Origin: Punica granatum
Taxonomy: Eukaryota; Streptophyta; Magnoliopsida; Myrtales; Lythraceae
Assembly: GCF_007655135.1 (NCBI RefSeq)
Contig: NC_045134.1
Span: forward strand, 16,826,568-16,890,567
Reading direction: 5' to 3'
Length of the DNA stretch: 64,000 bases
The number at the start of each line of letters is the position of its first letter. Within the stretch, counting starts at the first letter, position 1. The notes beneath the pieces are model-generated. The model made no database searches. It saw only the letters and a list, made by a program, of their open reading frames with translations, and was not told the DNA's origin. The translations under genes and the position numbers were made by a program. Of the stretch, positions 3,089 through 27,481 are shown piece after piece.

Positions 3089-4737
3089 AGGACATCACAC
3101 GTTTTATTATCCAAGGGCATTACCGTCATTCTGTGATCCACCGATATCCTAGGCGTTAGGGAGTTAAAAACACCTTGATCTATGGGCGAGGAAGGGCAAC
3201 CCGTTTGGGTGCGAGTTTCATTCGAGCGGCCCATTCCGTTCACTTTCGGTGTTTCTATCTTCCTATCGTAGATTCGGTGGTGAACATTTTATTTCTGTTA
3301 CGAAACATGAAGAACCGGATCAATAATGTATTTGACTTAATCAAACATTAGATAATGGATAGGTGGAATGGTAGGTTCCGATCTAGAGTAAAAAATACAA
3401 GTTTGGCTAATTCGGTGAAACCACAGTGACACCTCACTGAATAGAGTCTTAAAACAAATTCACACATGTAATCGGCTTAGAATCTTATTCCAGCCCACCT
3501 CTTTATTTGCCTAGGTTAGATATATTGTTTGCTAATCAACCCCGGTTAATAACTGATTAAATCACGTACATTCGGCCTAATATACAACTTGTCTGTATTT
3601 ATCCATGCTTGTCAGTTATTGTCTGTTTTTCATCAGTTTATCAGTTTTCTTCTGTTTTCCATTTACTTTTGCTAATTTGTGGCGGTTCGAGTTCGAGCCT
3701 ATAGGTTACGTGTTGCACGGGGCCCAACGTCCCAAATCACCGAACATGAGGTCCAACGCCTCCCAACCCACTGAGCGCGTGCAACCCGAGTGCGGAATGG
3801 GATCTAGCCTCGAGTCACCATGACACTCCAAATGTGGCCTATGTGGAAGGCAATTTGGATTGGATGTGTGAAACGTGTTTAGATATCACCCGGGAGCGCG
3901 ATCGGTCCAACGGTTACAGTGGGAACTAATCGGTTCTCCTGTAAACCGTCGGTTCGATTGGACCCGACCCCCGGCTCTTCGAGCCCGCGTTGCCTTAATT
4001 TATTTATCGATTATTAAAAATATACGGAGAGCCGGAGTGGAATATTGGCCCAATGCAAACCAATCGGGATCCATTTACTTATTTAGTTGTATTCTGTAAT
4101 TATTCGAGTGTACATTGTGAGGATCTTATTTGTACATCTATTCATTCATTTGTAAGGATCCCCGATCGGTAAGCGAGAGGTCCGAGTGCCGAATCGGTTA
4201 AGTCGGTCTATTGTCACCAAGAGATGAGTAAGCTCGAATACTCGTAGTCTCGGTTCACGCAGGGAATCGACCATCACGGTTCGATGAACTGTAACGCTAA
4301 GATAGTGAATCGATTCTTCGACACACAAGCCTACTCATCTTTCGGATTCTTAGCCCAACTTGATCAATTCATCGACTCTACGGTGTCAAAACGGGCGAGT
4401 CAAGTGCAACCCTAAATCACGCGGTAAATAAATAAAATGGCAAGCCTAGCAAACTAGAGTACCAAAAGGGCGTGCTGGATATAGGCCCGCACGTAATAGA
4501 ACCCCCGAATTCGGAATTTTCGGTTCCGTATGACCATTGCCTTAGTATTTAGGTGTACCCCGTACCCCTAGACCCGGGTAACTTATCGGCCCTCGACCTT
4601 CGAGTCGTAAAATGGCAAGTGGCGACTCCTTCTCACGTGCGTTCGTCGCGCGTCCTCAGGAAGGTGGACACTCCCAAGCCGCGTTGCGTAGGCTTCGCGC
4701 ATGCGTGCCCCGACGAGATGAAATTCGGGTGCGCACA
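3089..4737 (+). mobile_element. 3' part of the LTR of element C
   Basis: This is the plus-strand 3' third of the same LTR family. It matches about 39510-41166 of the 3' LTR of element A, including the GGGCATTACCGTCATTC-type block, the GGCATATAGGCCC-like block near 4475 and the terminal GGGTGCGCACA ending at 4737. A primer site follows after three bases, so this is the end of a 5' LTR. Its 5' two thirds are missing and replaced by the inverted fragment at 1-3088. It belongs to element C, the oldest recognisable layer of the nest. Confidence 0.85.
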
Positions 4738-5359: not shown

Positions 5360-6761
5360 ATGGACCGCCCGGCTCCCGGTCTCTGGCTCGAAGCAATCAC
5401 ACCAACGAGACAAGATATCATGCGCATTTGGAGGACTCTTCGACCGGTAGATCGCGCCTTCATTCAAGGCATCATCGGAGATATGGTTATGTTCACGGAA
5501 ACTCCGGTGGATTGGATCTTCTTGAGGACCGCCATCGAATTTTGGGACCCCGAACGTGCAGTGTTCAACTTTCAGGGGACGGAATTGGCGCCCACGATCG
5601 AAGAGTATACGGCACTCATCCAGAGGCCCACGTCCACGACCCAAGGCATCTTTGTGCCCAACCCGTTCGCAGTAATTCGGAGTCAGCTCTCCAACCTCCT
5701 CGGCATACCTACCCAAGAAGTCCACCAAGAGATACATCAAGGATGGGATCACGGCATCAGGGTCGCATGGCTCTCCGACTAGACGCTTCTCCGCGCATTG
5801 ACACCTTCAACGACGTCCTACCAACGCGACGCGTGTCACGGTTTCCTGCTCTTGATCTTCGGCACCCTCCTATTCCCGTACTCGCCGAACCTCATTGACG
5901 GAGCTATAGCCCAAGTCGTCCTCCAAGTGGTAGGAGGCCATAGTTATGTGGAGGCTCTATTAGCCGAGACCGTTCGGTCTCTAGACTATGTTAGAGAGGT
6001 TCGGTGCGGCTGGATGAGGGGATCCCCGCACCTACTACAGATTTGGCTCATCGCGCATGTCCGCCCCTTTTGCTCATCACATCCTTTCTCCTACATCACG
6101 GACGAGCGTTCGCTGATCGAGCGCCTAGTACCGATCATCCCACCTCCCGAGCACAGCTTCTCGGAATGGAGGCACTTTTGGTGCGAGTTAACGCCCGCGC
6201 GGTTCCTATGGGTCGCTTGTTAGAATCCCGGCGGCCCCATGATCACAGGATGTCCCGGAATCGTGGGAGTCCCTCTTCTCAGCCTCTTGGGGAGCACGCT
6301 CATATTTCCCGGCCGAGTAATCAGATAACTCGGCAGCTTACAGGACATTCCCACCGAGGCGGACCGCCTACCCTACCGCATCCAGTGGGCCGACTCCACA
6401 TCCACGGCCCCCGCAAGATTCCTGCAAATCCGGGAAATCCATCGTCAACGGGACGCGAGCACCATACAACGCCTTTACTTCCCCGAGCATCCCACCGACG
6501 AAGAGCGAGCACTCTTCGCCACATCAGCATACGTGGCTCAGTTCTATTCACAGGGATCGACATCGCCGCAACAGTCCCAGACCACCCCGACTCCCCGAGC
6601 TGCACCTGCCCCCGCTCCCGAAGCCGAAAGCTCTACCCAAGCTGCTATGCGCGCAGAGCTACGGGCCATTAGGGAGGAACGAGATAGGCTCCGTTGCGAG
6701 CTTGTTGACTCTCGCGCGGAGGTCGCAGACTACAGGGAGCTTCAGACGGAGTTGGCTCCAG
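5360..6761 (+). pseudogene. ORF1 of element C, DUF7745/plant-mobile-domain-like, broken
   Basis: This is the extra ORF that Tat/Ogre-like elements carry between the 5' LTR and gag. Its role is unknown. It begins MDRPAPGLW, runs in one frame parallel to the ORF1 of element A, and looks to me like the DUF7745 family related to the plant mobile domain, by recall and not by search. The frame is closed by TAG at 5780-5782, TAG at 6221-6223 and TAA at 6326-6328. At each site element A keeps a sense codon (TGG, TGG, CAA), so all three are transition mutations. The reading frame ends at a TG-starting solo LTR at 6762 and resumes at 43757. The C-terminal part is a coiled coil rich in E, R and L. Confidence 0.8.
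6757..6761 (+). repeat. Left target-site duplication of solo LTR B
   Basis: TCCAG here matches TCGAG at 43752-43756 with one mismatch. The uninterrupted ORF1 of element A reads GGCTCGAGCACGCG at this point, so the original target was TCGAG and the left copy has mutated. Confidence 0.8.
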
Positions 6762-8224
6762 TGTCAGCACCCCATTTTGGCCCACCGGCTTCCTACACGA
6801 GAATCCCCGACCAAAACTCGAGTTACTATTCATCACCTGACAATCAGAGGCGAACATGCGGGCACGGAGACATGAATTACAGGAGAAAAGCAGGGTGCAC
6901 TAGAAAGGCGGAGGAGAGCCGAAGAGAGCAGTCGGAAGAATTTACAGACAAGGAACCACGAAAACAGCGGAACCGGCACTGTGGCACTATTCATCATTGA
7001 ATCGCTGAAACACCAAAATGACCAACGACATGTCCGAGCGTGTCTCGGAGGCATCCCGCTTAAGCCAAGACACCCTCGATCTCTCACGGACGCCTTTTCT
7101 GACAGGGCTCTCGGGGCCCAATCCACTGACAAGTAAACGGCACCCCAAAACGGGCCTACAAGCACCCAGGGACCATCGGGGTCGGGGAACAAGCTTCAGA
7201 TGACCTTTCGGAACTCTACAGGGTTTCCCGAGGGACGTTTCAATGGTAGCGAACGCCTCCCGGTGAATCTTCGGGGCACATTCACAGAAAACAGAGATCA
7301 CAGCGATCCCCGAACACCTCAAGACATTCGGGAAACACTGAAAAAGCCCCGGTCACAAGTCCCTAGGTCTCCCCCGGGGCAACGGTCTTCGGTCGGGGAC
7401 GACGAGCCAACGATCCCCCGCGAGGCAAAAGGGTCACCAAAACGAACATTAAGATGCACAAAGAGCAATCAGAGACAGGGGGCACTCAACTCCATTCCGA
7501 ATGTCCGAACAGGGCAAAACCGACTCTCGAGGCGCCGAGCCACCCGAACATTTGTTCACATGACATATGGCGATATTGGGTTCATTCAAATCCTCTTCGT
7601 GCAAGCATTCCAAATCTATTAATTAATTGGACATCGGAGATCGGACACGCGTTCAATCAAGTCTCGAGCTTTTCCCGGCTTTTCTCTTAGTCGAATGGGG
7701 CCCACAGCTCAGCCAAGCCAAGCCTCCAAGCCACGGCTCAACCCCAAGCCACGGCTCAAACTCCAAGCCGCGGCTAAAACCCAAATTCGGTGGCTCAATC
7801 CTTCAAGAAGCTCCCTCCATCACACATTTCAAATATCTCTTACACCCATCAACTCCACTCTTCCATCCATCAACTCCACTCTTCCATCCATCACTTCCAA
7901 TCAACCGTTTCAAGACAACTTCCCCTCCCTAATCCCTCTTAAGAAATTCGGATGCCCTAAGCACCATTTAATTGCATTTAACTTCACTCAATCTTGTCAT
8001 TAAGCTTGCATTTATAAGTCCATTTGGTCATTAACTTAATCACAACTTATCATCCATTCTCTCTCAAGCTCTCTCACTCTAGAAAATCCTCTCAAGCCCC
8101 TTAGAGCTCAGCATTTTTCAGAAATTCGTCCAGCTTTCCCTCAGCCCGAAACCGAGGCAAAATTGCCGGAAAACTCAACCGTTTTCCGGCGACCGCCACT
8201 CAACCCAAACCAAACTTGACCAAA

Positions 8225-8590
8225 CTTTATATCCCACATGTATTCGACCTCCCGAGTCCATTTCCAGTGTTAGTTTCGTGATTCGGAGCCTCCAGCATCC
8301 CGTTCCAGCCCAGTCCAGATTCGGGTCCCTAGGGAGTTTCCCGGTTTCTAGGCGAGTTCTTCCTTCCCGACTTATCCGAGCCTCAAACAAACTTCATACC
8401 CCACATGTATTCGACCTCCCAAGTCCATTTCCAGTGTTAGTTTCGTGATTCGGAGCCTCCAGCATCCCGTTCCAGCCCAGTCCAGATTCGGGTCCCTAGG
8501 GAGTTTCCCAGTTTCTAGGCGAGTTCTTCCTTCCCGACTTATCCGAGCCTCAAACAAACTTCATACCCCACATGTATTCGACCTCCCGAG
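8225..8590 (+). repeat. Tandem repeat of about 180 bp in LTR B
   Basis: Two near-identical units and part of a third start at the CATGTATTCGACCTCC motif (about 8237, 8404 and 8572). Each contains GATTCGGAGCCTCCAGCATC and a splice-neutral GC-rich stretch. Solo LTR D has related, less regular units near 23400-23650 on the other strand. Confidence 0.8.
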
Positions 8591-9526
8591 TCCATTTCCA
8601 GTCTTAGATTTTCATTTGGAAAGCAGTCGGTTTTGCCCCTGTCCAAAATCGGGCTCCCTAGGCGGTTTCATGGCTTCCCGGGCTTCTTCGACGCCATTCC
8701 TTCCCACGACCATGGCGAGTCGTGCCATCGCTTTCTAAGGGTTCCTCATGACCCTCACTCTCCCCCGTGACGAGGTGGTCATCTGCCGAGAGCCACTCAA
8801 CCGCGCAAGACCGCCCTTTTTCAATCTTTTCCTTTACCGGGTTTTCACAGTTTTTTTATCGGTTTCTCTTTGCATTTCCAGTTGAAATCAGTCGTGTGCA
8901 CGCCACAAGCTGGTCACGAACACCAAGAGTAGTCCCTTAGGAGTCGGAGGAACTCGAGCCAGCTCGGTGCAACACCCGAAGCCCCCTTTGCAGCCGTTTC
9001 AACCCAAACAGCCCGGTCGGGTCTGTCCCTCTGATTTTCTTTTCTGACCGGACCTTTGCAGGAGCATACAGGTCAGCTCGGGTTGAATCTCACTACGAGC
9101 CACCTATCACCATGATCCTCAGTCAGTTAGGAGTCCAATGCCACCAACCTTGTATCAAAAGACCACCGGGAGCCTCCTGTGGAGCCGTTTCTTCATCGGG
9201 TGCCAGTCGGGTCTGTTTTGACCCGACTGGGTCTGTCTTTTTTTTTACTGACCCTACTTTGTTTTTTATTTTCGGAAAATCTACGCGTGCTCTCCTCCCA
9301 AAACCACCGCAGACGCGATCCCTGGTCTCTTGGGAATCCAATACAACAGGCCCCGCACGAAAATTCCATCCCAATCAACCGGTACAGCCCCGACAAGCTG
9401 GACTGCCAGTCGGGTCTGCCGCTGACCCGACTTCACTGATTCGGGTCTGTTCATTCCAGGGGGCAGAACCGACTTCCCAAGCCCTTTTTCCGACTTTCCT
9501 CGACTTTTCCCGCATCCCGGGTGTCA

Positions 9527-9531
9527 GCACC
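9527..9531 (+). repeat. Left target-site duplication of element A
   Basis: CCGGG immediately precedes TGTCAGCACC at 9532 and recurs directly after the 3' LTR end at 41167-41171. After removal of element A, LTR B reads continuously as CGCATC-CCGGG-GCTAGG, matching the parallel sequence CGCATCTCGGGGCTAGG in solo LTR D (reverse of about 22457-22475). Confidence 0.9.
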
Positions 9532-12500
9532 CCATTTTGGCCCACCGGCTTCCTACACGAGAATCCCCGACCGAAAACCGAATTACTATTCATCACCCGA
9601 CAATCAGAGGCGAACGTGCGGGCACAGAGTCATGAATGACAGGAGAAAAGCTGGGTCCACTAGAAAAGCGGAGGAGAGCAGTCAGAAGAACAGACAAACA
9701 AAGAACCCCGAAAACAGCGGAGCCGGCACTGTGGCACTATTCATCACCGAATCACTGAAACACCGAAAGGTGCCCAATATGGGACTCTAAAAATCCCTCT
9801 CAGTGCCAAAGTGACCAACGACACATCCGAGCGCGTTTCGGGGGCACACCGCTTAAGTCGGGAAACCCCCGATCTCTCACGGACGCCTTTTCTGACAGGG
9901 CTCCCGAGGTCCGATCCACTGACAAGTAAACGGCCCCCAAAACGGGCCTGCAGGCATCCAGGGACCACTGGAATCATGGAACAAGCTTCAGACGACCTTT
10001 CGGAACTCTACAGGGCTCCCCGAGGGACATTTCAGTGGTAGCAAATGCCTCCCGGTGAATCTTCGGGGCACGTTCACGGAAAACAGAGATCACAACGATC
10101 CCCGAACACCTCGAGACATTCAGGGAACACCGAAAAGCCCCGGTCACAAGTCCCTAGGTCTTCCCGGGCAAACGGTCTCCGATCGGGGACGACGAGCCAA
10201 CGATCTCCCGCGAGGCAAAAGGGTCACCGAAACGAATATTGAAAGGCACAAAGAGCAATCGGGGACCAGGGGCATTCAACTCCACTCCAAACGTCCGAAC
10301 AGGGCAAAATCGGCTCTCGAGGTGCCGAGGCGCCCGAACACTCGTTCCCACGACATATGGCGATATTAGGCTCATTTAAACCCTCTTCATTCAAGCATTC
10401 CAAATCTATTAATTAATTGGGCATCGAAGATCGGACGCGCATTCAATCGAGTCTCAAGCTCTTTCCGGCTTTTCTCTTAATCGAATGGGACCCACAGCTC
10501 AGCCAAGCCAAGCCACCAAGCCACGGCTCAACCCCAAGCCACGGCTCAACCCTTCAAGCCTCGGCTCGCCCGCAATCAGCCGCGGCTTCCCCCTCCAACC
10601 GGCGGCTCCAAAGCTCTCCCACCACAAATTCAAATTTCCCTCACATCTTTCACTTCCCATCACCCATCCATCACACCCATCACTCTTACTCTTGCTTCCC
10701 CTACACTCTAAATGACCCAAACCCCATCCTAATCTCCCTCCAATTTCGGCAGCCCATGTTTAAGCCCCAAAACCGTGATTAACTTCACTTAACCGAACCA
10801 TTAGAGCCTCCTATAAGTTCCCATTCATCATTAGACTTAATCACTTCTCCATTCTCATTCTCTCTCAAGCCAATCTCTCTCCAAAATCCTCTCAAACTCC
10901 AGCCCATCCCCACACTCTCGTCCAGCCCGTGCCAAGGCCAAAACCGGCCAAAATTACCGGAAAACCACCCGGTATTCCGGTAACCACCCGACCCGACTTA
11001 AGCCAAAAATCATCAAACTCCCTAGCCTACATATTTCCTACCCCCTAAGTCCATTTCCGGGCTTAGATTTTCGATTTGAAGCCTCCAACGTCACATTCCA
11101 GCCGTGAAGAGAATTGGGTCCCGTGGGTCACCCGCGCGCAACCGTGCCCTAACGACGTGCCATTTCGCTCCACGACTTTGCCGAGTCGTGCCATCACATT
11201 CCAAGGGTTCCTCACAACCCTCAGCCTCCCTCGTGAAGAGGTGGTCATGATCCGAGGGCCGATCCACCGTGCACAACCACCGTTTCATCATTTTTCTCTT
11301 ACCGGGTTCCTTGTGTTCATACCGAACTTTCTCTCACTGTTTCGGGTTCATCTAGGGCTTGGCACGTTCGAGCCTGTCCACAGTCGTCTAGATCTGTCCC
11401 TTAGGAGTCCAAGGAGCCCGACCTCGCACCGTGCCGTGACCGGAGCAAGCGTGTCGACCCATTTTCCTCGAGCTGCCGCGACTGCACCTCTCTCGGGTCA
11501 CTCCACCCGTAGCTCTAAACCGAGTCTTGCGACTCTCAAGGCCGGTTCCTCGACTCTTCTCCTCGTGCATTGAGGCTAGGTAACCTCTCTTTATAACTTA
11601 TAGAAGTTAGGATCTTCGATTTTTGCTTATATGAGATGTCTATACGTTCTAAAGAGTCGGAATGTATGAAAGGTTGTATTTTTCTTTCAGATCCGTGACC
11701 CCCATGCACGTCCATGCAATGTACGTCCACCATGTTTCCTTTACACGTCCGTGCCATGTCCGTATGATGCAAGAGCTCGTGTGCCATGATAGGAAGTGGC
11801 TCGGACCCGAATGGGAGAGACTCCCCAAGCCACGGTTGAGCCAAGGGACCCACGGCCTAGTCTCAAGGGAGAGACCCGTGAGCCCCCTTGGCTTGTCCGG
11901 GGCTAGGACGGTCTCTCTTTTCCCGAAATGAGTTGATTCCTATGCCTTTTTACCGTTAATCGCATGTAATACGATAGTATGACGGGAAAAGATCCGAATC
12001 GGGGCCGGAGAAACCCACCCGACTCGTGTGAGCCACGAAAGCTCACGGCCATCCTCGATGGAATGTGGCCGAGAGCTTCCTTGGACCACACGAGTCCGGG
12101 AGGCTTTCTTCCACCTCGAGACGAGTCGATTCCCGTGTTTTATCCATTTCGTTATTATTTGAGTTGAGGCCGTATTGCTATTTCCGTTTAAACGCCTCGT
12201 TCGTGTGTGTTTGTATGATTTTATATGATTATGACCATGGCTAAGACGTGATTAAACGAAGGGAATGATTCGGAATCTAGGAAGGAGAGCTCTTGAAGGG
12301 TTCAGCCATACCAAGGAACTCACGGCCATCCCCTTGCAATAGGGGCCGTGGGGCCGTGAGGCTCCTTGGTGTGCCCGAAGCCTTTGGGCTCTTCTTTCCT
12401 TGAGGCCGCGTGATTCCCGCACGTTACTCCTAAGTTTATCATGAAATGAGCTAATATTGTTTGTTGATTTTGTGAATATGATGTCTTTGAATGTCCCACG

Positions 12501-14494
12501 TGCTTATTTGTGTAAATCGTGATCGTGTTGATGCCGATCTAGTGAAATATGTGTTGTTCTCACGTATATGTCGTTTGTTGCATGCAAGGGGCGATTAGGA
12601 ACGATGTGAAAGACCCACCAAAACTCGAATCGGGTCAAGGAGTATTCGGCCACTCATCCTTGAGAGGTGGCCGAATCATCGGTGACCTCCTTGGAGTCTC
12701 GGCTGGTCCCTCCATTATTCCGAAATTGATCCTTGGAATTGTTCGTAATTACGCTTCCTTTTCATCGTTGTCTACGCGTTTATTACTTATTAGACATGTT
12801 GTATCCGGATGTCAACAGTCAAAACCGTAACCGTGACATGAAATAATAAATATCGAAGAATCTCACAAACAGGACAAACGGACGTATCATCCGGCTAACT
12901 AAACCACTTGGACCAAACAATCGGATGAATTGATTATTAATTCGTAAACGCATCGATGATTCGCGGAACGGTGAGAATGCCCTTTTCCTCAAAAGATCAC
13001 AATTTCAAAATACCGAGACACATAACACGGATAGAATTGACGTCTACCGAGTACTCGCACGCTATGACTTGAGTCCAGGCCCAATTTGAGGCGGCTCGAG
13101 TCAAGGCACGCGAGTCCTCCTCAGACTTCTCCGTGTGACGCGATCTTCAATTTGCACACGAGCACCACAATTTTATTATCCAATGGCATAATCGTCATTC
13201 CGTGATTCATCGATACCCTAAGCGTTAGGGAGTTGGAAATACCTCGATCAATGAATGAAAAAGGGCAACCCGTTCGGGTGCGAGTTTCATTCGCGCGGCC
13301 CGGTTAATGACTGATTAAATCACGTACACTCGACTTAATACACCACTTGTCTGTATTCATCAGTATTTGTCAGTTATTGTCTGTTTTTCATCAGTTTTAT
13401 CATTTTTCTCCTGTTTTCCATTTGTCCTTGCTAATTTGTTGCGGTTCGGGCCCGAGCCCATAGGTTACGCATTGCACGGGGTCCAATGCCCCAAACCACC
13501 GAACACGAGGTCCAACGCCTCTTAATTCACTGAGCGCGTGCAACCCGAGTGCGGAATGGGATCTAGCCTCGATTCACCATCATACTCCGAATATGGCCTA
13601 TGTGGAAGGCGATTTGGATTGGAAGCGTGAAACGGGTTTAGATATCACCCGGGAGCTCGATCGGTCTAACGGTTACGGTAGGAATCAACCGGTTCTCCTG
13701 CAAACCGTTGGATCAATCGGACTCCACCCCCGGCTCCTTGAGCCCGCGTTGCCTTAATTTATTTATCGGTTATTCAAAACACACGGTGAGCCGGAGCGGA
13801 ATATTGGCCCAATGCAAACCGATCGGGATCCATTTACTTATTCAGTTATACTTTGTAATCATTCGAGAGAATATTGGGAGAATTTTATTTGTATACTCAC
13901 CATTCACTTGTAAGGATCCCCGATCGGCGAGCGAGAGGTCCGAGTGTCGAGTCGGTTAAGTCGGTCTATCGTCACCAAGGGATGAGTAAGCTCGAATAAT
14001 CGTGGTCTCGGTTCACGCAGGGAATCGACCATCACGGTTCGATAAACTGTAACGTTAAGATAGTGAACCGATTCCTCGACGCACAAGCCTACTCATCCTT
14101 CGGATTCTTGGCCCAACTCGATCAATTCATCGACTTTACGGCGTCAAAACGGGCGAGTCAAGTGCACCCCTAAATCAGGCGGTAAATAAACAAAACGGCA
14201 AGTCTAGCAAACTAGAGTACCGAAAGGGCGTGTGGGATATAGGCCCACACGTAATAGAACCCCCGAATTCGAAGTTTCCGGTTCCGTATGACCATGGCCT
14301 TAGCATTTAGGTGTACCTTGTACCCCTAGACCCGGGCAACTCAACGACCCTCGACCTACGGGTCGTAAATAGTAAGTGGCGACTCCTTCTCACGCGTGTC
14401 CGTCGCACGTCCCCGGGAAGGTGGACACTCCCAAGCCGCGTTGCATAGGCTTCGCGCATGCGTGCCCCGACGAGATTAAATTCGGGTGCGCACA
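9532..14494 (+). repeat. 5' LTR of element A
   Basis: The LTR is 4,963 bp, from TGTCAGCACC to GGTGCGCACA. It matches the 3' LTR (35938-41166, 5,229 bp) with about 1-3 percent substitutions in the stretches I compared by eye. The main length difference is a deletion of about 311 bp at 13301, corresponding to 39662-39972 of the 3' LTR. Small opposite deletions in the 3' LTR lie near 36832 and 36925. Promoter and polyadenylation signals should lie within it, but I could not place them. No gene is supported. Confidence 0.9.
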
Positions 14495-14497
14495 GCT

Positions 14498-14516
14498 TGG
14501 CGACTCCACTGGAGAC
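14498..14516 (+). promoter_or_regulatory. Primer binding site of element A
   Basis: TGGCGACTCCACTGGAGAC lies three bases after the 5' LTR end. It differs by one base from the site of element C at 4741. It is the presumed tRNA annealing site for first-strand synthesis, possibly an arginine tRNA. Confidence 0.88.
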
Positions 14517-15100
14517 ATACTTAGTGGGTTCGGGCTCGATTCCGTTTGCTTGCTTGCATGTTTATTTACCGCTTTCCGTACATTTACTTTTAAGCACATT
14601 TATTTCTTGCATTTGCATCACATCATTCTAGCGGGTTCTTAGGTACCTTGTCCGAAATCTCACGGGCACCAAAATAAGAAGCTAGGTTAGTCAGAGGTTC
14701 CGAGTAAGGGAACGGATCGAGTCGGCTATGCCACCGAACCGGCCCCCAAAGATCCTCGCTCGATTTCAAGGAATTCACACCCTTGTATCGGGAGCCCCCA
14801 TCCCTAGTTACCGGTTATCCCAGTAGCACCGAAAACCATGCATACACAGGGACCGTCATGCTAGACCCATCTTTGCCTCCATGCCGTCAATCGACCCAAA
14901 TGTCAAGTCTTTGAGTCGGCCCGTAGTTTTTCTTTAGGACAAGCATTTTGTTGTTTTGTAAGGGAGAGTGATGTATACTGTAAAGAACACGACTATAGTT
15001 TATCTTTCCGCACTGCATGCATTATTTCCGAAAAACTTAGGACATTACATTGATTTGATTCTTAAGACGTTAAGCCGGCATCTCCTCCATCTAGGTAAGG
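14517..15100 (+). other. Untranslated leader of element A
   Basis: This stretch runs between primer site and ORF1 and is parallel to 4760-5359. I see no coding region or clear regulatory motif. The packaging signal would be expected here, but nothing specific is visible. Confidence 0.7.
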
Positions 15101-16600
15101 ATGGACCGCCCGGCTCCCGGTCTTAGACTCGAAGCGATCACACCACCAAGGCAAGACATCATGCGCATCTGGAGGACTCTCCGACCGGTGGATCGCGCCT
15201 TCATTCAGGGCATCATCGGGGATATGGTCATGTTCACGGAAACTCCGGTGGATTGGATCTTCTTGAGGACCGCCATGGAGTTTTGGGACTCTGAACACGC
15301 GGTATTCAACTTTCAAGGGACGGAGTTGTCCCCCACGATCGAGGAGTATACGACCCTCATCCAGAGGCCCACGCCTACGACCCAAGGCATCTTTGTGCCC
15401 AACCCGTTCGCGACCATTCGGAGTCAGCTCTCTAGTCTTCTCGGCATACCCACCCAAGACATCCACAAAGAGCTTCATCAAGGATGGGACCACGGCATCA
15501 GGATTGCATGGCTCTCCGACTGGACGCTCCTCCGCGCACTGACACCTTCGGCGGCATCCTATCAGCGCGACACATGTCACGGATTCCTGCTCTTAGTCTT
15601 CGGCACTCTCTTGTTCCCGTACTCACCGAACCTCATTGACGGGGCTATTGCCCAAGTCGTCCTCCAAGCGGTAGGAGGCCATAGTTACGTGGAGGCTTTA
15701 CTAGCCGAGACCGTTCGGTCTCTAGACTATGTTAGAGAGGTTCGGCGCAGCAGGATGAGGGGATCCCCGCACCTGCTGCAGACTTGGTTCCTCGCGCACG
15801 TCTGCCCCTTTTGCTCATCACATCCGTTCTCCTACATCACCGACGAGCGTTCGTTGATTGAGCGCCTAGTACCGGTCATCCCACCTCCCGAGCACAGCTT
15901 CTCAGAAAGGAGGCACTTTTGGCGCGAGTTGACGCCCGCACGGTTCCTATGGGCCGCTCGATGGAATCCCGGCGGCCCCATGATCACGGGATGTCCCGGA
16001 ATTGTGGGAGTTCCCCTTCTCAGCCACTTGGGAAGCACCCTCATATTCCCCGGCTGGGTAATCAGACAACTCAGCAGCATACAGGACATTCCCGCCAAGG
16101 CGGACCGCCTACCCTACCGCATCCAGTGGGCCGACTCTACATCCACGGCCCCCGCAAGATTCCTATAGATTCGAGAGAGCCGCCGTCAGCGGGACGCTAG
16201 CACCATACAGCGTCTGTATTTCCCCGAACACCCCACCGACGAAGAGAGAGCATTCTCCGCCACAGCAGCATACGTAGCCCGGTTCTACCCACGAGGGTCG
16301 ACATCGCCACAACGGTCCCAGGCTTCCCCGACTCCCCGAGCTGCACCTACCCCCGCTCTCGAAGCTGAAAGCTCCATTCAAGCAGCCATGCACGCGGAGC
16401 TACAGGCCATCCGGGAGGAACAAGATAGGCTCCGTTGCGAGCTTGTCGACTCCCGCGCAGAGGTTGCGGACTACAGGGAGCTTCAGACGGAGTTGGCTCG
16501 AGCACGCGCTCGAGTCGCACATTTAGACCGGGAGATGGCCCGTTTAGGCGCGAAGTTGGACCGAGTGCACAAAAAGGCGCGCGAGATCGCCCACCCTTAG
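15101..16600 (+). pseudogene. ORF1 of element A, DUF7745/plant-mobile-domain-like with C-terminal coiled coil
   Basis: One frame of 500 codons from MDRPAPGLRLEAITPP to KKAREIAHP, broken once by TAG at 16166-16168. Element C has CAA at that site, so this is a Q-to-amber change. Residues about 20-350 form a helical globular region with Trp-rich motifs (VDWIFLRTA, LSDWTLL, HFWRELTPARFLW) that I associate with DUF7745, a domain related to the plant mobile domain of MAIN/MAIL1 proteins. Residues about 425-499 form a charged coiled coil (AIREEQDRLRCELVDSR). The role in retrotransposition is unknown. It lies between the primer site and gag, the place of ORF1 in Ogre elements. Upstream translation through the amber codon, or loss of function, are both possible. 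Confidence 0.8.
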
Positions 16601-16918: not shown

Positions 16919-18513
16919 ATGGCGGAAGGGGATCGAGTCGATATCTCCGAAGAAGTCAACCCACCGGTTCCGGCTCATTCTCAAACGCCCCCAATGCACG
17001 CTCCACCGCCTCCGACTCCTGCAGGCATACTCCCGGTGTATTCGGGCGCCCCTCCTACACATCTCCCGCCCCCGACGTCTTCAGGGACGCCCCTTCCACC
17101 AGTCTCGCTGACATCATCCGCCTCCGACGACCAAGCCCGCATCACGGCACTCGAGGGCACGGTCAACCAAATGGCCACTAACATGGCAGAGCTGCTCGCC
17201 GTGTTTAGAGGACCGAACCGTGCATCCTCAAGCTCCACACCTCCACCAGGACAAGGGCCAACAGTTGACCCGACTCCTCAGGTTCCGCCGACTCAAGTCC
17301 CGGAGAACATGGATGCGCCCGCACCACCAACACTGCATGCGTCCATGGCTCACCCTTTCACCAGCCCATATCCGCCGCCACCGGCCCCCACGGCCGTCTC
17401 TCTTCCACCGGCGACATTCCTGTCCTATGAGCAGGCCCTGTCCGCACCTCCTCCTATCTCTATACCGGTCCCAGCTGCGGCCTAAACAGCGCCTCCACCG
17501 ATGGTCTTCCCGGCATCAAGCGCACCTGCTCCGACTCACCCTCAAGCTGCGGAACTTCCTCCGTACCCGTCTCTACAACCCCACGTCGGCCTCTCTTACT
17601 AGGCACCGCCCCCCATAAACACTACCTTCCATGAACCAGGCACGCCGACTCACGCGGCCCAGTTCGCCTCACCAACGCACTTCTTCCCCGACGCTGACGT
17701 CGAACAAGAACGTAGATTGAAGCGAATGGAGGAGACGACACGAGCCCTACAGGCGAGTGATGCCCGGCCCGATGCGCGCTACGGCGACTGTAGCCTATTC
17801 CCGGGGATGCGGCTCCCCCCGAAGTTCAAGATCCCAGAGTTCAAAACCTACGAGGGCACGACGGATCCACGCCACCACCTCCGCCATTACAGGGGAAAGA
17901 TACTACAGTATTGGGAGTACGAGGAGTTTGTCATCCACTCCTTCCAGGATAGCCTGTCAGGATCGGCCCTCGATTGGTTCATGTCGCTAAAGGCCGAGGA
18001 CATCCCGACGTGGGAAGACCTCTCTCGGAAGTTTATCGACCAATACCGATATTGCGCGGAAGCGCCTCCCACCCTCCTGGAGCTGAGCACGAAAGAAATG
18101 GCGCAGGGCCAAAGGTTCGAGGAATACGCCACTAAGTGGCGTGCCCAAGCAGCGAAACACATCCCTCCAATCAGTGAAGCGCAACAAATCCAGTTATTTC
18201 ACTCCACGCTGAGGGGAGTGTACTATTCACACCTGTTGGCCCACACTTCGTCGTTCTCCGACCTCATCGAGGCCGGGAAAAAGCTTGATTTGGGGATCAA
18301 GCTCGGAAGGATGGAGGGCCCCGCTAGTAGAGGAGAGGAGTCATCGAAGGTCCCCACCACGTCGTCATCTTCCGGCGGAAGGAGAGGGAAGGAAGTTTCA
18401 GTGAACGCCGTCAATACGGCACGTCAGGCGTCCCAACAATATTCGGTGAATCTCACGACCACACCGACCACCACTCCTACCTACTTCCCTCCGCCCCCAC
18501 AGCACCAGCCTTA
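16919..18513 (+). pseudogene. gag of element A (N-terminal and capsid part)
   Basis: This encodes the structural Gag protein that would build the particle. Start is MAEGDRVDISEE. Residues 1-265 are proline-rich linker (many PPP and TPPP runs). The frame is broken by TAA at 17483-17485 and TAG at 17600-17602, then stays open from 17603. The Retrotrans_gag domain lies at about 17800-18200, with motifs FKIPEFKTYEGTTDPRHHL and DWFMSLKAEDIPTW, which I recognise as Tat-type capsid. The frame ends at TAG 18512-18514. The gag-protease reading continues in another frame (LVDYYSAPP), so a frameshift of one base lies at about 18505-18515. That shift is probably a decay lesion and not programmed, since related copies as I recall them read straight through. 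Confidence 0.85.
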
Positions 18514-19885
18514 GTCGATTACTACTCGGCCCCGCCGATCCCGCCTCCAATGACCTCACAACCGTACGACCACTACGCACCCGCGTCGGCTCAGCCCTCT
18601 CAACCTAGGCCCCCAGTGTCGAGAGCTCCTCCACCGGCGCAACAGAATCCTACTACGCAGGGACCGCAGGCCGGCAGCACGCAGAGTCGACCCCGCAAAC
18701 AATACACACCACTGCCTGCTCCTCTCTCCCATATATATCGGCAACTCCTAGCGGGCAATCAGATTCAGCCGATATCCCCGGGCCGGAATTTCGACCCGTC
18801 CACTCAAGATCAGTCTAAGCACTGCGAGTATCATCAGGGCGCGCCGGGGCATACTCTCGACAACTGTTGGAGGTTGCGTGACGAGATCCAGAGGAGGATT
18901 GACAGCAACAGGCTCACCTTCAATGCCGTCAGACCCCCGAATGTGCAGGCCAACCCCCTCCCGGACCATAGGCCGAGTTCGGGGCCTTCCATCAACATGA
19001 TCGCCGTGTGCGTCTCGGGGAGGGACGAAGACGCGCAGGACAACCCCCTTCCCTTTGTGATCGACTACACTCCCGAGGAAGCCATAGTCGGATTCACAGG
19101 ACATGTGGCCTCGCCGGCCCCATTCGTAGTAGACATCCCCGCTCGGGAACCGTACTCAGACAGCAAGGTCCCCTGGACCTATGAAGGGAGTATCGGGAGT
19201 GTCGAACAGCAATTCAGTGTCATGGGGGTGACACGTTCGGGGCAGGTGTACGAGAACCCGGCAGCCAAGGACATAGGGAAGGCGCCCGCCGCTGAAGTTG
19301 AGGCGGCGCCCGAAAGCTCTCCTTTTCCGTCCAAAAGGGTGACCGAAGAGGAAGCCGAGGCGTTCATGAAGATCGTGAAGGCGAGCGAATACAAAGTGGT
19401 CGAGCAAATGGCCAAGTCCCCAGCCCACATCTCTTTGCTTGCCCTCCTCCTCGGCTCGGAACCACACCGAGAAGCCCTCCTCCAGGTACTGACCGCGGCA
19501 CATTTCTCGAAGGAAACGCCTCCCGATAGGATAGAGGAGACTATCGGTTCTATCTTCTCTAACACTATCTCGTTCTCGGACGACGAGCTCCCGTCCGAAG
19601 GGTGGTCACATTCGCGGGCATTGCACATTGTCTGCAAATGCAACAACTACATCATCGGCCGGGTCATGATTAACAATGGGGTCGCGCTCAACGTTTGCCC
19701 GGTGACCACCTTGAAGCAGATGAATGTGGACCTCAACCGAGTCCGCCCGAGCAAAACAGCGGTCCGAGCCTTCGACGGCTCACGCAGGGAGGTGAACGGG
19801 GAGATCGGCCTCCTCGTAGATGTTGGCCCGTGCTCGTTCAGCATCACATTCCAGGTGCTCGACATCCCGAACGCGTTCAGCCTGT
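18514..19885 (+). pseudogene. gag-protease of element A (zinc-knuckle-like region and protease N-part)
   Basis: Continues Gag after the frameshift. A cysteine-histidine motif CEYHQGAPGHTLDNC (about 18821-18865) stands where other elements have the zinc knuckle. A Pro/Glu-rich linker follows. The retropepsin-like protease begins at about 19620 (LHIVCKCNNYIIGR). Its active-site triplet reads INNG at 19669-19680. Tat-type proteases as I know them read IDNG, so the catalytic Asp has become Asn, and the next Ser has become Val. The frame is cut after AFSL by solo LTR D at 19886 and resumes at 25214 with LGRPWIHSAG. The protease is therefore inactive twice over. Confidence 0.85.
19881..19885 (+). 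repeat. Left target-site duplication of solo LTR D
   Basis: CCTGT precedes TGTGCGCACCC at 19886 and is repeated at 25209-25213. Removing the insert and one copy gives AGC CTG TTG CTC GGG, which restores an unbroken protease frame. Confidence 0.95.
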
Positions 19886-22800
19886 TGTGCGCACCCAAAT
19901 TTAATCTCGTCGGGGCACGCATGCGCGCGCCTAAGCAAACGCGGCTTGGGAGTGTCCACCTTCCCGGGGACGCGCGACGGACGCACGTGAGAAGGAGTCG
20001 CCACTTGCCATTTTACGACCTGAAGGTCGAGGGCCGGCAAGTTACCCAGGTCTAGGGGTACAGGGTACACCTAAATGCTAAGGCAATGGTCATGCGGAAC
20101 CGAAAATTCTGAATTCGGGGGTTCTATTACATGCGGGCCTATATCCCGCACGCCCTTTCGGTACTCTAGTTTGCTAGGCTTGCCGTTTTGTTTATTTACC
20201 GCGTGATTTAGGGTCGCACTTGACTCGCCCGCTTTGACACCGTAAAGTCGATGGATTAATCAAGTTGGGCCAAGAATCCGAAAGATGAGTAGGCTTGTAC
20301 GTCGAGGAATCGGTCCACTATCTCAGCGTTACAGTTCATCGAACCGTGATGGTCGATCCCCTGCACGAACCGAAACCGCGAGTATTCGAGCTTACTCATC
20401 TCTTGGTAATAATAGACCGACTTGACCGGTTCGACACTCGGACCTCTCGCTCGCCGATCGGGGATCCTTACAAGTGACCGAGTGAATATACAAATAAAAT
20501 CCTCACAATGTTCTCTCGAATAATTACAAAGTGTAACTGAATAAGTAAATGGATCCCGATCGGTTTGCATTGGGCCAATATTCCACTCCGGCTCACCGTG
20601 TGTTTTGAATAACCGATAAACAAATTAAGGCAACGCGGGCTGAAGGAGCCGAGGGTCGGGTCCGATCATTCCAACGGTTCGCAAGAGAACCGGTCGATTC
20701 CCACTGTAACCGTTGGACCGATCGAGCTCCCGGGTGATATCTAAACCTGTTTCACGCATCCAATCCAAATTGCCTTCCACATAGGCCATATTTGGAGTAT
20801 GACGGTGAATCGAGGCTAGATCCCATTCCGCGCTCGGGTTGCACGCGCTCAGTGAATTAGGAGACGTTGGACCTCGTGTTCGATGGTTTGGGGCGTTGGA
20901 CCCCGTGCAACACGTAACCTATGGGCTCGGACTCGAACTGCAACAAATCAGCAAAAGGAAATGGAAAACAGAAGAAAACTGATAAAACTGATGGAAAACA
21001 GATAACAACTGACAAACGTAGGTGAATACAGACAAGTTGTGTATTAAGTCGAATGTACGTGATTTAATCAGTTATCGACCGGGGTTGATTTGCAAACAAT
21101 GTGTCTAGCCTAGGCAAACATAGATGGTGGGCTAGAATATGGTTCTAAGCCGATTACATGTGTGAATTTGTTTTAGAGCTTTTATTCGGTTAAGTGTCAC
21201 TATGGTTTCACCGAATTAACCAAACTTGTGTTTTGACTCTAGATTAGAACCTAGCATTCCACCTATCAATTATCTAATGTTCGTTTAAGTCGAGTGCATG
21301 ATTAATCCGGTTTTTCGTGTTTCGTAAATGAAATGAAATGTTCACCACCGAATCTACGGTAGAAAGATAGAAACACCGAAAGTGAACGGAATGGGCCGTG
21401 CGAATGAAACTCGCACCCGAACGGGTTGCCCTTTTCCGCCCATAGATCGAGGTGTTTCCAACTCCCTAACGCCTAGGGTATCGGTGAATCACGGAATGAC
21501 GATTATGCCCTTGGATAAAATTGCGATGTCCGTATGTAAATTGGAGATCACGTCACACGAAGAAATCTAAGGAGGACTCACGCGTCTTGACTCGAGCCGC
21601 CTCAAATCGGGCCCCGACTCGAGTCATAGCACGCGAGTACTCGTTAGACATCAATTCTATTCGTGTTACGTGTCTCGGTGTTTTGAAATTGTGATCTTTT
21701 AAGGAAAAGGGCATTCCCGCCGTTCCGTGAACTATCGATGCGTTTACGAATTAAGGATCGATTAACCCAATTATTTAGTCCAAGTGATTTAATTAATCGA
21801 GTGGCACGTCCCGTTTCCCGTTTGTAAAGTGGTTTAATGATTGAGACCTCAAACCTCAATTGTTATGGATCAATGAAATGATTGTTCGATATTAACGTAT
21901 CTAGCATACGAATTAACATGAAACCAACGATTAAATGAAAATTGTGATTACAATCAATTCCAAGAATCGGTTTTGACCGTTTCTTGCATGCATAAAACAT
22001 CAAACACGATGACAACGTGCATTTTTACATAGCCGGTGCCGCCATGATCTTAGGAACGCAATTAAACATACAAACAAGCACAAGCACGATATTTAGAGGA
22101 ATCGATAAAACGACACCGACTCATGGGAAGCAAAAAATGTAAAAACTCGGGAAATGACTTGAGTCGGGAAAAGGAGGTCATCCATGGCCCGAGGAAGCCA
22201 AGAGGGGCTCTCGGCCACCTCCCTTGGGGCGAGGCCGAGAGGCTCCCTTGGTTCGCCCGAGCCAACGATGTCTCCTCGACTCCGATTCAAGCTATTTCCC
22301 GACATGCTAGCACTATAAACGATGAAGACATGCATAATACGATGTAAAAACACATAAAAACATAAACTTGCATGTGAATTCATGGACCGCCTTATCGCCC
22401 CACAAACACAAAGAAAACGTAAAAGTCCTAACTTCTCTGAGTCGGGAGTGATTATACCTAGCCCCGAGATGCGGGAAAGAGTCGGAGAAGTGGCAGAGGG
22501 AGTCGGGAGACTCGGCTGGAACGAACAGACCCGAATCAGTGAAGTCGGGTCGGCGGCAGACCCGACTGGCAGTCCAGCTTGTCGGGGCTGTACCGGTTGA
22601 TCGGGATGGAATTTTCGTGCGGGGCCAGTTGCATTGGATTCCCAAGAGACCAAGGATCGCGTCTGCGGTGGTTTCGGGAGGAGAGCACGCGTAGATTTTC
22701 CGGAAATCAAAAACGAAGTAGGGTCAGTAACAAAAAGACAGACCCAGTCGGGTCAAAACAGACCCGACTGGCACGCGATGAAGAAATGGGTCCATAGGAG

Positions 22801-25208
22801 GCTCCCAGTGGTCTTTTGATGCGAGGTCGGTGGCATTGGACTCCTAACTGACTGAGGATCATGCCTGCGGTGGTTTCATGAGGATTGGACATGTAGATTT
22901 TTTGGAAATCAAAAACAAAGTCGGGTTAGCTAGCAGAAAACAGAACCAACTGGGCGGAACTGACCCGACTGGGCAGATCGGAAAGAAATGGCTGTCCCGA
23001 AGGCTCCCGGTGGTATTTTGCTGCAAGGTTTGTCGCATTGGACTCCTAACTGACTGAGGATCACGGTGATAGGTGGCTCGTAGCGAGATTCAACCCGAGC
23101 TGACCTGTGCGTCCCTGCAGTGGTTTCATGAGGATTAGACATGTCTATTTTCCTGAAAGATGCAAAGAAAACCGGTAAAAAACTAGAAAAATCTGTGAAG
23201 GGAGAAAGGAGAGAAAAGGCGGTGGTGCACGGTTGAACGGCTCTCGGCACTCGACCACCTTGTCACGAGGAAGAGTGAGGGTTGTGAGGAACCCCTATGA
23301 AGTGATGGCACGACTCGCCATGGTCGTGGGAAGAAATGGCGTGCCAAGGATCCCGAGGTGGCCGTGGAAACCCGTTTCTGCACTGTTTCTACTACCTGCT
23401 GAAACGGTGTGTTGGAGGCTTCAAATGCTAAAACTAGGTTCGGAAATGGATTTAGAAGGTCGAAAACATGTGGGGTACGAAGTTTGGTCAAGGCTCGAGC
23501 AAAGTTGGGGGGCGGGACTCGCCTAGGAACCGGGAAAGTACCTAGAGGCCCGATTCTGAAATGTTCTAGATCTGCATGCTGGGAGCTTCAAATGCTGAAA
23601 CTAACACCGGAAATGGACTCGGGAGGTCGAATACATGTGGGATATGAAGTTTGGTCAAGTTTGGTTCGGGTTGGGTGGCGGTCGCCGGAAAACGGTTGAG
23701 TTTTCCGGCAATTATGCCTTGGTTTCGGGCTGAGGGGAGGCTGGACGAATTGCTGAAATGTGCTGAAGTTGAGAGGGCTTGGAGAGGGTTTCCTAGAGTG
23801 AGAAAGCTAGAGAGATGATGGAAGTTGAGTTGTGATTGAGTCTAATGATCAATGGGAACTTATAGGATGTGATAATGGCTTGATTAAGGGGAAGTTAATT
23901 GCGGTTTTGGGCTTAATGGGGCTGCCGAAATGGCTTAGGGTGGCTGCCGAAATTTCTAATGGGATTAGGGAGGGGGAGATGTCACTTAGAGTGTGGGGGA
24001 AGCAAGGGTAAGAGTGATGGGAGGTGATGGAGAGGTGATAGGAGGTGATAAGTGTGTAAGAGGTGTAAGAAGATTTGAATTTTGTGGTGGGGGGAAGCTT
24101 GAGCCGCCGGTCATGGGAGGGGGAGCCGCGGCTTGGGCCGTCCAATCAGAGCCGAGGGTTGAGCCGTGGCTTGGGGTTGAGCCGCGGCTTGATGGCTTGG
24201 CTTGGCTGAGCTGTGGGTCCCGTTCGGTTGAGAGAAAAGCCGGAAAATGCTTGAGACTTGATTGAGCGTGCGTCCGATCTCCGATGTCCAATTAATTTAT
24301 GGATTTGGAATGCTTGAATGACGAGGATTTGAATGAGCCTAATATCGCCTTGCGTCGTGTGGACGAACGTTCGGGCGACTTGGCGCCTTGAGAGTCGGTT
24401 TTGCCCTGTTTGGACGTTCGGAGTGGAGTTTAGCGCCCCTTGACCCCCGATTGATCTTTGTGCATTCTTGCATTCGTTTTGGCGATCCTTTCGCCCCGTG
24501 GGTGATCGTTGGCTCGTCGTCCTCGGTCGGGGACCGTTGGCCCGAGAAGACCTAGGGACTCTGACCGGGATTTTCTCAGTATGCCCTGAATGCCTTGAGG
24601 TGCTTGGGGATTATTGTGAGGTGCTCAGAGATCGTTGTGGTCTCTGCTTTCCATGGAAATGCCCGAAAGCTCGCCGGGAGGCGTTCGTGACCACTAAAAC
24701 GTACTTCGGGAGACCGAGCCGAGTTCCGGAAGATTGTCTGAAGCTTGTTCCCCGACCCTGGTGGTCCCTGGGTGCCTGTAGGCCCGTTTTGAGGGGCCGT
24801 TTACTTGTCAATGGAGCGAACCCCGGGAGCTCTGTCAGAAAAGGCGTCCGTGGGGGGATCGGGGTGTCCCGGCTTAAGCAGGATGTCTCGGAAGTGCGCC
24901 CGAACGTGTCATTGGTCATTTTGGCACTGAGAGGGATTTTTGGAGCCCCATATTGGGCACCTTTCGGTGCTTCGGTGACTCAGTGATGAATAGTGTCATA
25001 GTGCCAGCTCTGCCGTTTTCGGGGTTCTTTGTCCGTTCGTTCTTCCGATGGCTTTCCTTTGCTTTTCTCAGTGACCCAGCTCTTATCTCATTGTTCATGA
25101 CTCTGTGCCCGCCTATTTGCCTCTGATTGCCGGGTCATGAACAGTAACCCGGGCTTTGATCGGGGATTCTCGTGTGGGAAGCCGGTGGGCCAAAATGGGG
25201 TGCTGACA
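19886..25208 (-). mobile_element. Solo LTR D (B-type, inverted) inside the protease
   Basis: On the minus strand it starts TGTCAGCACCCC (at 25208) and ends GGTGCGCACA (at 19886). At 5,323 bp it is a complete LTR with no primer site, no internal region and no second LTR. A perfect 5-bp target duplication shows it arose by recombination after a normal insertion. The middle (about 22480-23250) is the B-type module, with two to three tandem units of about 200 bp (starting near 22664 and 22862), each with GGTGGTTTC and CCTAACTGACTGAGGATCA. It belongs to the same LTR subfamily as solo LTR B. It carries no convincing gene. Confidence 0.92.
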
Positions 25209-25213
25209 CCTGT
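25209..25213 (+). repeat. Right target-site duplication of solo LTR D
   Basis: CCTGT directly follows TGCTGACA at 25201-25208 and equals 19881-19885. Confidence 0.95.
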
Positions 25214-25892
25214 TGCTCGGGAGGCCCTGGATCCACTCGGCCGGAGCCGTCCCCTCTTCTTTGCACCAAAGGCTGAAATTCATCGTCGAGGAAAAGCTCA
25301 TCACGGTGAAAGGAGATGAGGACTACGCCATCTACAAGGAGACGGCGGTGCCCTACATCAGCGTCGGGGAGGACGAAAACCTCCCGTTCCATTCATTCGA
25401 GACCATCTCCGTCATCCGGGACTACGGAGAGAGTGGACCGTCCCGTGCCGACCGCATGATAGGGAAGGTTCTCCTGCGCAACAACTACATTCCGGGCTCC
25501 GATCTCGGGGCGCGCGGACAAGGGATCAACCGCCCTATTGAAATCGAGGAGTACAAGCACAGGAGAGGTCTCGGCTTTCGCCCCTCCTGTCATGAAATCA
25601 TCGAGGCCCGCAGGGGCAACCACCTTCACCTCCTCGCCGCACACTATGGTAGGCTCAACAGGGGCACTCCAGTCCCCCCGTTATCCCACTTCTTCCCCGG
25701 GCCTTCACACACTATCGGGGGCACCCTTGACGGCCCTTCCTCGGACTCCGACGACACTCCTGCCGCTTCGTCAGCCGTGTACACCGTCACCGAAGAGATT
25801 CCTTCAGGGGTTCACATCCGCTTGGCGCAGGAAAATGAGGAGCTCAACAACTGGACCTCAGTCCCGCGCAACTCGGCTGTGGTTGCCGATGT
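25214..25892 (+). pseudogene. protease C-part and linker of element A
   Basis: Resumes the gag-protease frame after solo LTR D. LGRPWIHSAGAVPSSLHQ is the conserved retropepsin flap-to-C-terminus segment of Tat elements. The rest is a linker rich in Pro, Ser and acidic residues, ending ELNNWTSVPRNSAVVADV. The frame closes at TAA 25894-25896, two bases into a GTAAGG donor-like site. Splicing from 25893 to 26304 would join GAT GT to G CTC CAC in frame and fuse the protease to the reverse transcriptase, as in Ogre elements. The segment 25213-25892 itself holds no stop. Confidence 0.85.
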
Positions 25893-26243
25893 GTAAGGCT
25901 TATCTACGTATAAGATGTGCCCCGCGTGTTGGCATAGCCATGCTCCACACGACGGGAGAGGGGTTTCTATTATGGCTTCGTGTCCACGTTATCAATGAAA
26001 TCTCTCACGCATTTTTTGAATTCCCATGTGCTTCATCTCCTGAGCTCAACAACTGGACCTCAGTCCCGCGCTACTCGGCTGTGGTTGCCGATGTGTAAGG
26101 CTTATCTACGTATAAGATGTGCCCCGCGTGTCGGCATAGCCATGCGCCACACGACGGGAGAGGGGTTTCTATTATGGCTTCGTGTCCACGTTATCAATGA
26201 AATCTTTCACGCATTTTTTGAATTCCCATGTGCTTCATCTCCT
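25840..26243 (+). repeat. 202-bp tandem duplication across the splice donor
   Basis: Units 25840-26041 and 26042-26243 are nearly identical. They start GAGCTCAACAACTGGACC and end CTTCATCTCC. Each contains the last codons of the upstream exon and the donor GTAAGG. Only the second unit runs on into the pyrimidine-rich tract TTTTCCTATTCTCTATTTCG. Confidence 0.95.
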
Positions 26244-26304
26244 TTTCCTATTCTCTATTTCGCAGCACTATAAAATTTCTAAGACGATTCTCTCGAATTT
26301 CCAG
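25893..26304 (+). other. Candidate intron between protease and reverse transcriptase
   Basis: Donor GTAAGG at 25893 and acceptor TTTCCAG ending at 26304. Joining gives a split Val codon (GT/G) and keeps the frame from protease into reverse transcriptase (VADV-LHSNPNL). Without the 202-bp duplication the intron would be 210 bp. A duplicate donor lies at 26095, but using it would leave the TAA at 25894-25896 in the message. Another possible acceptor is TTTCGCAG at about 26267-26274, also in frame. Introns at this point are known in Ogre elements. Splicing here is inferred. Confidence 0.7.
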
Positions 26305-27481
26305 GCTCCACTCGAATCCAAATCTTCGACACTTGGATTCGAACCTATCCCAAGAGCACCTCGGTGAGCCCCAACCCGTATACTTTGGGGAAGGGTTTCC
26401 CGAGGACAGTCAAGTGCCCGAGATAGAAGAGAGTTTGCGTCGCCTCGAGGACCATCAAATCACCTTGGTCGAGCCAACAGAGGAGATCAACGTGGGCACT
26501 GAAGAAGAGCCCCGCACCTTGAAGATCGGGACAGCCCTCAACCCTACACAGCGAACCCGGATGATCGACTTCTTAAGGGAGTATCAAGAGGTCTTCGCCT
26601 GGTCATACGCTGACATGCCCAGCTTAGACCCCTCAATAGTCGAGCACTTCCTTCCACTCGACACTGAGAAATTCCCGCCCAAGCGCCAACAGTTACGACG
26701 ACAGCGAGCTAGTCTTCTCATCCGCATCAAGGAAGAAGTCGTCAAGCAGATCAACGCGAGATTCCTCGAAGTCTGCAATTATTCCGAGTGGGTGGCGAAC
26801 ATTGTGCCCGTGGAAAAGAAGGATGGAAGGGTCCGAGTCTGCTTCGACTACCGAGACCTCAACAAAGCTAGCCCTAAGGATAATTTCCCCTTGCCACACA
26901 TCGACGTCCTGGTCGATAATACGGCACGCCACGCTCAGTTCTCTTTCATGGACGGCTTCTCCGGATACAATCAAATCCGGGTGGCCGAAAAGGACAAACT
27001 CAAGACGACGTTCTCCACGATGTGGGGAACCTTTTGCTACCGCGTTATGCCTTTCGGCCTCAAGAACACAGGGGCAACTTATCAGAGGGCTATGGTCACA
27101 CTATTCCACGACATGATGCACAAAGAAGTCGAGGTATATATCGATGACATGATCGCCAAGTCCAAAGAGGGAGAAGACCAACTTGTCAACCTGAAGCGCC
27201 TTTTCGATCGCTTGAGAGAATATAAGCTCCGGCTCAATCCGGCGAAATGCACATTTGGTGCCCGATCGGGAAAGCTGCTAGGGTTCGTGGTCAGTGAGCG
27301 CAGCATCGAAGTGGATCCGGACAAGGTCAAGGCAATCAAAGAGCTTCCCCCGCCATCAATGGTTCGGGAGGTACGCGGCTTCTTGGGACGGCTGAATTAC
27401 ATTGCGCGTTTCATTGCAAACTTGATGGATAAGTGTCAACCGCCCTTTCGCCTACTCCGCAAGAATGCAGCGATGGAGTAG
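26305..27481 (+). pseudogene. pol of element A: reverse transcriptase
   Basis: Ty3/Gypsy reverse transcriptase, which copies the element RNA into DNA. Conserved parts in order are LPLDTEKFPPKRQQLRR, VPVEKKDGRVRVCFDYRDLN, FPLPHIDVLVDN, FSFMDGFSGYNQI, MPFGLKNTGATYQRAM, the catalytic YIDDM box (27137-27151), LNPAKCTFG and the thumb/connection LPPPSMVREVRGFLG. All catalytic motifs are intact. The frame is closed by TAG at 27479-27481, where the family has Trp (TGG). Downstream RNase H stays in the same frame. A start codon is not needed if the intron is spliced. Confidence 0.92.

Follow-up and report, generated by a model that had tools for sequence, protein, structure and literature searches.

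A DUF7745/plant-mobile-like open reading frame with a putative coiled-coil tail, probably the extra 5' ORF of an Ogre-type Ty3/gypsy family in pomegranate

What kind of gene lies before gag in a giant pomegranate retrotransposon, and what might its product do? The question was raised by the window analyzed here, a stretch of 64,000 nucleotides of Punica granatum DNA, in which a first-pass annotation had pointed to an additional ORF (hereafter ORF1) at positions 15101-16600. It had been described as a plant mobile domain (PMD)/DUF7745-like protein ending in a charged coiled coil, and as part of an unusual system. We conclude that 15101-16600 represents the extra 5' ORF, upstream of gag, of a pomegranate Ogre-type Ty3/gypsy family, with a probability of about 0.8 that covers the identification and excludes the mechanism.

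To which element ORF1 belongs follows from the anatomy of the locus, which is a nest. The element carrying 15101-16600 (N) lies inside a solo LTR (M), M interrupts ORF1 of L, which is an older copy, and a further solo LTR (O) lies inside N. The features are as follows.

3093..4737, + strand: 3' part of the 5' LTR of L (self-comparison, junctions; left limit approximate)
5360..6761, + strand: first part of ORF1 of L, with three in-frame stops (self-comparison)
6762..9521, + strand: solo LTR M, first part; M interrupts ORF1 of L and is itself split by N
9522..14494, + strand: 5' LTR of N (self-comparison, TG...CA ends)
14495..14520, + strand: primer-binding-site (PBS)-like stretch of N, directly 3' of the 5' LTR
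15101..16168, + strand: ORF1 of N, DUF7745/PMD-like globular part, terminating at an in-frame stop (Pfam, translation)
16169..16600, + strand: ORF1 tail of N, linker and putative charged coiled coil, behind the first stop and up to the second
17603..18514, + strand: gag capsid region of N (Retrotrans_gag, 3.3e-07), overlapped in a different frame by the gag ORF that follows
19886..25208, - strand: solo LTR O, in N (self-comparison, junctions)
25207..25896, + strand: ORF past O in N (sub-threshold G-patch)
26222..27481, + strand: reverse transcriptase of N (RVT_1, 3.9e-26)
27623..28501, + strand: two RNase H domains of N, the second an RVT_3 match (Pfam)
28676..29746, + strand: integrase of N (rve, 2.4e-15)
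35938..41166, + strand: 3' LTR of N (self-comparison, junctions)
41167..43751, + strand: target duplication of N, then the remainder of solo LTR M (self-comparison, junctions)
43753..43854, + strand: end of the coiled coil and stop of ORF1 of L, the last 33 residues, displaced by about 37 kb

The two LTRs of N measure 4,973 bp (5') and 5,229 bp (3'); their aligned parts are 95.3% and 96.2% identical, and some 300 bases are present in the 3' LTR only. Target duplications of 5 bp flank N (CCGGG) and O (CCTGT) exactly on both sides, whereas for M 4 of the 5 bases match. In total, N extends over 31,645 bp, or 26,317 bp after subtraction of O together with its duplicated target, in line with the giant retrotransposon that had been proposed. 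There may be one further insertion inside N. Between the integrase and the 3' LTR, the minus strand carries a 637-residue ORF with gag, zinc knuckle and protease from another Gypsy element (30825-32738), for which self-comparison revealed no LTRs of its own. In the flank, a leucine-rich-repeat protein ORF at 57989-59353 (+ strand) is probably a host gene.

The position of an extra ORF upstream of gag distinguishes Ogre (Ty3/gypsy, OTA, Tat) from Retand elements. In Ogre elements this ORF lies on the sense strand, and in N, 15101-16600 precedes gag (17603-18514) on the same strand, as had been claimed from the letters alone. Furthermore, Ogre and Retand elements harbor a second RNase H that follows the first and precedes the integrase (PMC6317226; this and the other papers are cited from excerpts), and N shows the same order, with RT_RNaseH at residues 5-83 and RVT_3 at residues 138-255 of the 27623-28501 ORF, followed by rve. 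Published Ogre elements have LTRs of 1.9-6.5 kb and a size of 16-25 kb (PMC6431247); the LTRs of N fall within this range, whereas its 26,317 bp without O lie slightly above it. Just upstream of the reverse transcriptase, the ORF at 25207-25896 scored against G-patch with 21.2 bits (E = 0.00028; cut-off, 22 bits), a domain that has been reported in plant LTR elements (PMC9289625).

Two further Ogre characters are less clear in N. In Ogre, gag-protease and reverse transcriptase-RNase H-integrase form two ORFs split by an intron. The frames of N do differ before and after 25896-26222, yet a tandem duplication lies there and the frames are broken. This duplication (25840-26243; 202 bp, 98% identical) sits between the G-patch region and the reverse transcriptase of N, roughly at the site of the Ogre intron. 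The Ogre primer binding site is antisense to tRNA-Arg (PMC9289625). In N, a PBS-like stretch adjoins the 5' LTR, and the reverse complement of 14498-14515 ends in CCA.

We then asked what ORF1 encodes. The reading frame starts with MDRPAPGL, runs for 355 open codons to a stop at 16166-16168, and continues beyond it for 143 codons in the same frame up to a second stop at 16598-16600. The 355-residue part matched Pfam DUF7745 (PF24924) with 76.6 bits and E = 2.5e-21, clearing the curated threshold (26 bits) by a wide margin, residues 39-326 being aligned to positions 19-277 of the 341-position profile. This similarity is not due to chance. In contrast, the PMD profile (PF10536; cut-off, 34.9 bits) gave only 16.3 bits (E = 0.0057) with ORF1 and, likewise under the cut-off, 26.0 bits with its relative P0001. 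Hence, the DUF7745 half of the first-pass assignment stood, whereas PMD membership stayed below threshold. In the family, 29 of the 30 members scanned matched DUF7745 and 16 of the 30 matched PMD at E <= 0.01 (best, 1.9e-8). The globular part had also been called conserved and Trp-rich. It has 12 Trp among 355 residues (3.4%); 9 of these 12 sites carry Trp in the other copy, 2 carry a stop and 1 an Arg.

The charged coiled-coil tail predicted by the first-pass annotation gained support, its location being corrected to behind the stop, at 16169-16600. Over approximately its last 75 residues, ORF1 resembles a charged coiled coil. Of 200 shuffles, none reached the best heptad score of the tail; for the tails of two relatives, P0090 and P0043, the best score was reached by 4 and 2 of 200, respectively. 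Against Pfam, the tail returned 21 families at E <= 1, none above its cut-off, with coiled-coil proteins numerous among them. ORF1 is thus laid out as a DUF7745/PMD-type domain, probably helical, followed by a Pro/Ser-rich linker and a putative C-terminal coiled coil.

Searches for protein relatives returned 181 matches at E <= 0.001, and 119 of the best 120 were named Punica granatum. In further protein searches, all of 80 matches and all of the best 120 of 164 carried this name, with the exception of P0039. The latter, a 199-residue protein assigned to Bifidobacterium breve, lies on a contig of 597 bases and is a piece of the pomegranate ORF1 family, very likely a contamination of the bacterial assembly. 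No host MAIN or MAIL gene was identified among the matches listed.

Structure prediction was performed on two alignments. The first (A1) had P0001 as its first row and 30 rows in total, namely 29 proteins hand-picked from the best 120 of the 181 relatives plus ORF1 of N. The second (A2) had ORF1 of N as its first row and comprised 72 rows (71 relatives and ORF1, P0039 having been dropped), after a filter that demanded coverage of at least 55% of the query and at least 55% of the protein and was passed by 72 of 162. Both models were mostly helical and, with mean pLDDT values of 47.5 (A1) and 51.3 (A2), too poor for fold comparison. The only well-predicted part of the A1 model was the putative coiled-coil helix, the last one of P0001 (residues 425-456), in blocks of mean pLDDT 75 to 97. 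A profile search of solved structures gave a single match at E = 0.75, which we counted as none. Because no confident fold was obtained, a kinship of ORF1 with MAIN and MAIL1 is suggested by the sub-threshold PMD match. These two PMD-C proteins, described together with the phosphatase PP7L (PMC7156037), share with ORF1 a distant, sub-threshold profile similarity in the PMD family, and they are host genes whereas ORF1 is borne by an element.

Two copies of ORF1 had been announced, at 5360 and 15101, and both are indeed present, with 88.2% identity over 1402 gap-free bases (15101-16502 versus 5360-6761). The nested anatomy derived from self-comparison and junctions indicates that they belong to two elements of one family. 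However, neither copy is intact. The one in L carries its stops within the first part, is broken at 6761 by the nested insertions and resumes only at about 43752-43753; DUF7745 matches were found in two of the four pieces of its first part. The similarity between L and N stops at 44101, and the self-comparison of the window revealed no gag belonging to L. N itself has one in-frame stop in ORF1, and its gag region, into which O has inserted, is read in two frames that overlap. A full ORF1 protein cannot come from either copy, and both are presumably functionless now. Public gene models include longer ORF1 relatives, some of which have a similar tail at their end.

Were the two copies nevertheless shaped by selection? 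A comparison of N with L, one pair of 463 codons (4 of 467 having been left out for a stop in either copy), gave a dN/dS of 0.151 (bootstrap, 0.109-0.207), with 0.152 for the head and 0.148 for the tail. The copies differ 45, 21 and 100 times at codon positions 1, 2 and 3, respectively. When the same substitutions were placed randomly, the mean dN/dS was 0.76 and a value as low was reached in 0 of 1000 trials, and the five other frames, used as controls, gave 0.25 (reverse strand), 0.84, 1.25, 2.45 and 2.80. We also compared the synonymous divergence with that of adjoining DNA: dS was 0.38 and the divergence at 4-fold sites 0.23, versus 0.11 in the adjoining part of the LTR and 0.10 in the UTR. 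As a yardstick independent of dS, we derived the expected changes from non-coding rates by sequence context, which predicted about 59 changes at position 1, 49 at position 2 and 68 at position 3. Measured against it, position 2 was held back and position 3 was in excess. Since synonymous divergence exceeds that of the neighboring non-coding DNA and position 3 changed more often than expected, dS seems to be inflated and 0.15 too low a ratio; decay of C/G accounts for only part of the synonymous excess. The real constraint is thus probably weaker than 0.15 implies, but its sign is retained. Overall, purifying selection probably acted on both the head and the tail of ORF1 during the active period of the family. 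Profile similarity and a sign of selection, the two points on which the first-pass annotation had staked its idea, were therefore both found, the second from one pair.

Steinbauerova in 2011 reportedly dealt with the PMD-bearing extra ORF of plant Ogre elements. PMD is among the most prominent extra-ORF domains and occurs in 57% of Ogre elements (PMC6317226), it is the most frequent non-canonical domain in a consensus set of plant Gypsy elements (PMC9289625), and clades A1 and A2 of PMD are encoded exclusively by Gypsy elements (PMC5418596). N has in common with the plant Ogre elements that carry a PMD ORF (Neumann 2019, PMC6317226) the extra ORF, the plant-mobile-type domain, the double RNase H and the long LTRs; it differs in that its ORF1 matches Pfam DUF7745 first and PMD weakly, and the excerpts of that paper do not mention a coiled-coil tail. 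Similarly, the angiosperm-wide PMD-A1/A2 of Gypsy elements (Ikeda 2017, PMC5418596) are, like ORF1, PMD relatives encoded by retrotransposons. The name DUF7745 was not found in the literature covered, which was partial. A PMD-type extra ORF in Ogre has thus been described already, and that of N is one more, an ordinary find in itself. As to the direction of transfer, capture and domestication scenarios are both set out in PMC5418596, where the ancestry is called open. Because these scenarios and the PMD in the Ogre extra ORF are in print, the system is less unusual than the first-pass annotation supposed; its idea is sound and largely published.

What an intact ORF1 would do is a separate matter. 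In the same partial literature no tested function of an Ogre-borne ORF1 protein was found, in agreement with the first-pass statement that its role is undescribed. We tentatively infer, at somewhat less than even odds, that an intact protein would multimerize via its coiled coil, that the multimer would act in the nucleus on chromatin or on the host machinery for PMD-dependent silencing or expression, and that this action would favor the element. That ORF1 is a dedicated anti-silencing factor, whose head would mimic the host PMD proteins and whose coiled coil would join and poison the MAIN/MAIL1-PP7L complex, so that the family escapes this silencing route, seems unlikely; for PMDs captured by DNA transposons, anti-silencing has been speculated upon (PMC5418596).

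Alternatively, ORF1 could be an RNA-handling accessory that multimerizes via the coiled coil and serves the nuclear exit of partly spliced Ogre genomic RNA or the control of its splicing. In pea and barrel medic Ogre elements, the intron is lost by only a subset of transcripts (PMC6317226) and a need for RNA handling therefore exists; in the worm element Cer1, moreover, the CERV protein is needed for nuclear export of genomic RNA (PMC10309623). However, no RNA-binding family was found among the Pfam matches of ORF1 and its scanned relatives, and the host PMD proteins have roles in silencing and gene expression, which makes this explanation rather doubtful. A structural partner of Gag or the particle, with the coiled coil serving assembly, would fit an ORF located directly before gag on the same strand; yet ORF1 has its own stop about 270 bases ahead of the next ORF (16874) and its head matches DUF7745 rather than a capsid family, and we consider such a role improbable.

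The public gene model CRG98_018283 (P0008) covers the same DNA. It shows 100% identity to ORF1 of N over the aligned columns of A2, with 107 of 107 residues identical at 15101-15421, and its later parts are, as judged by eye, stretches of the ORF1 translation. We rejected it as a host gene. Although the relatives are publicly named "DUF7745 domain-containing" or "Aminotransferase-like plant mobile domain" proteins, it is very improbable that ORF1 is a MAIN/MAIL-type host gene or a recent host capture within the repeat and that CRG98_018283 is real, since ORF1 is flanked in N by the 5' LTR and gag and follows an LTR in L, the model has to skip the in-frame stop to include the tail, and the relatives behave like a repeat family, being all but one from Punica granatum among the best 120 of 181.

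To return to the tentatively preferred reading of a nuclear multimer acting on host silencing, expression or chromatin, what this locus adds to the published picture is the sign, from one pair, that ORF1 was kept together with its tail, along with a corrected nested map. Host silencing makes use of relatives of this domain. Knowing the role of the element-borne protein would thus reveal whether the host borrowed from the parasite or the reverse, a question raised in PMC5418596.
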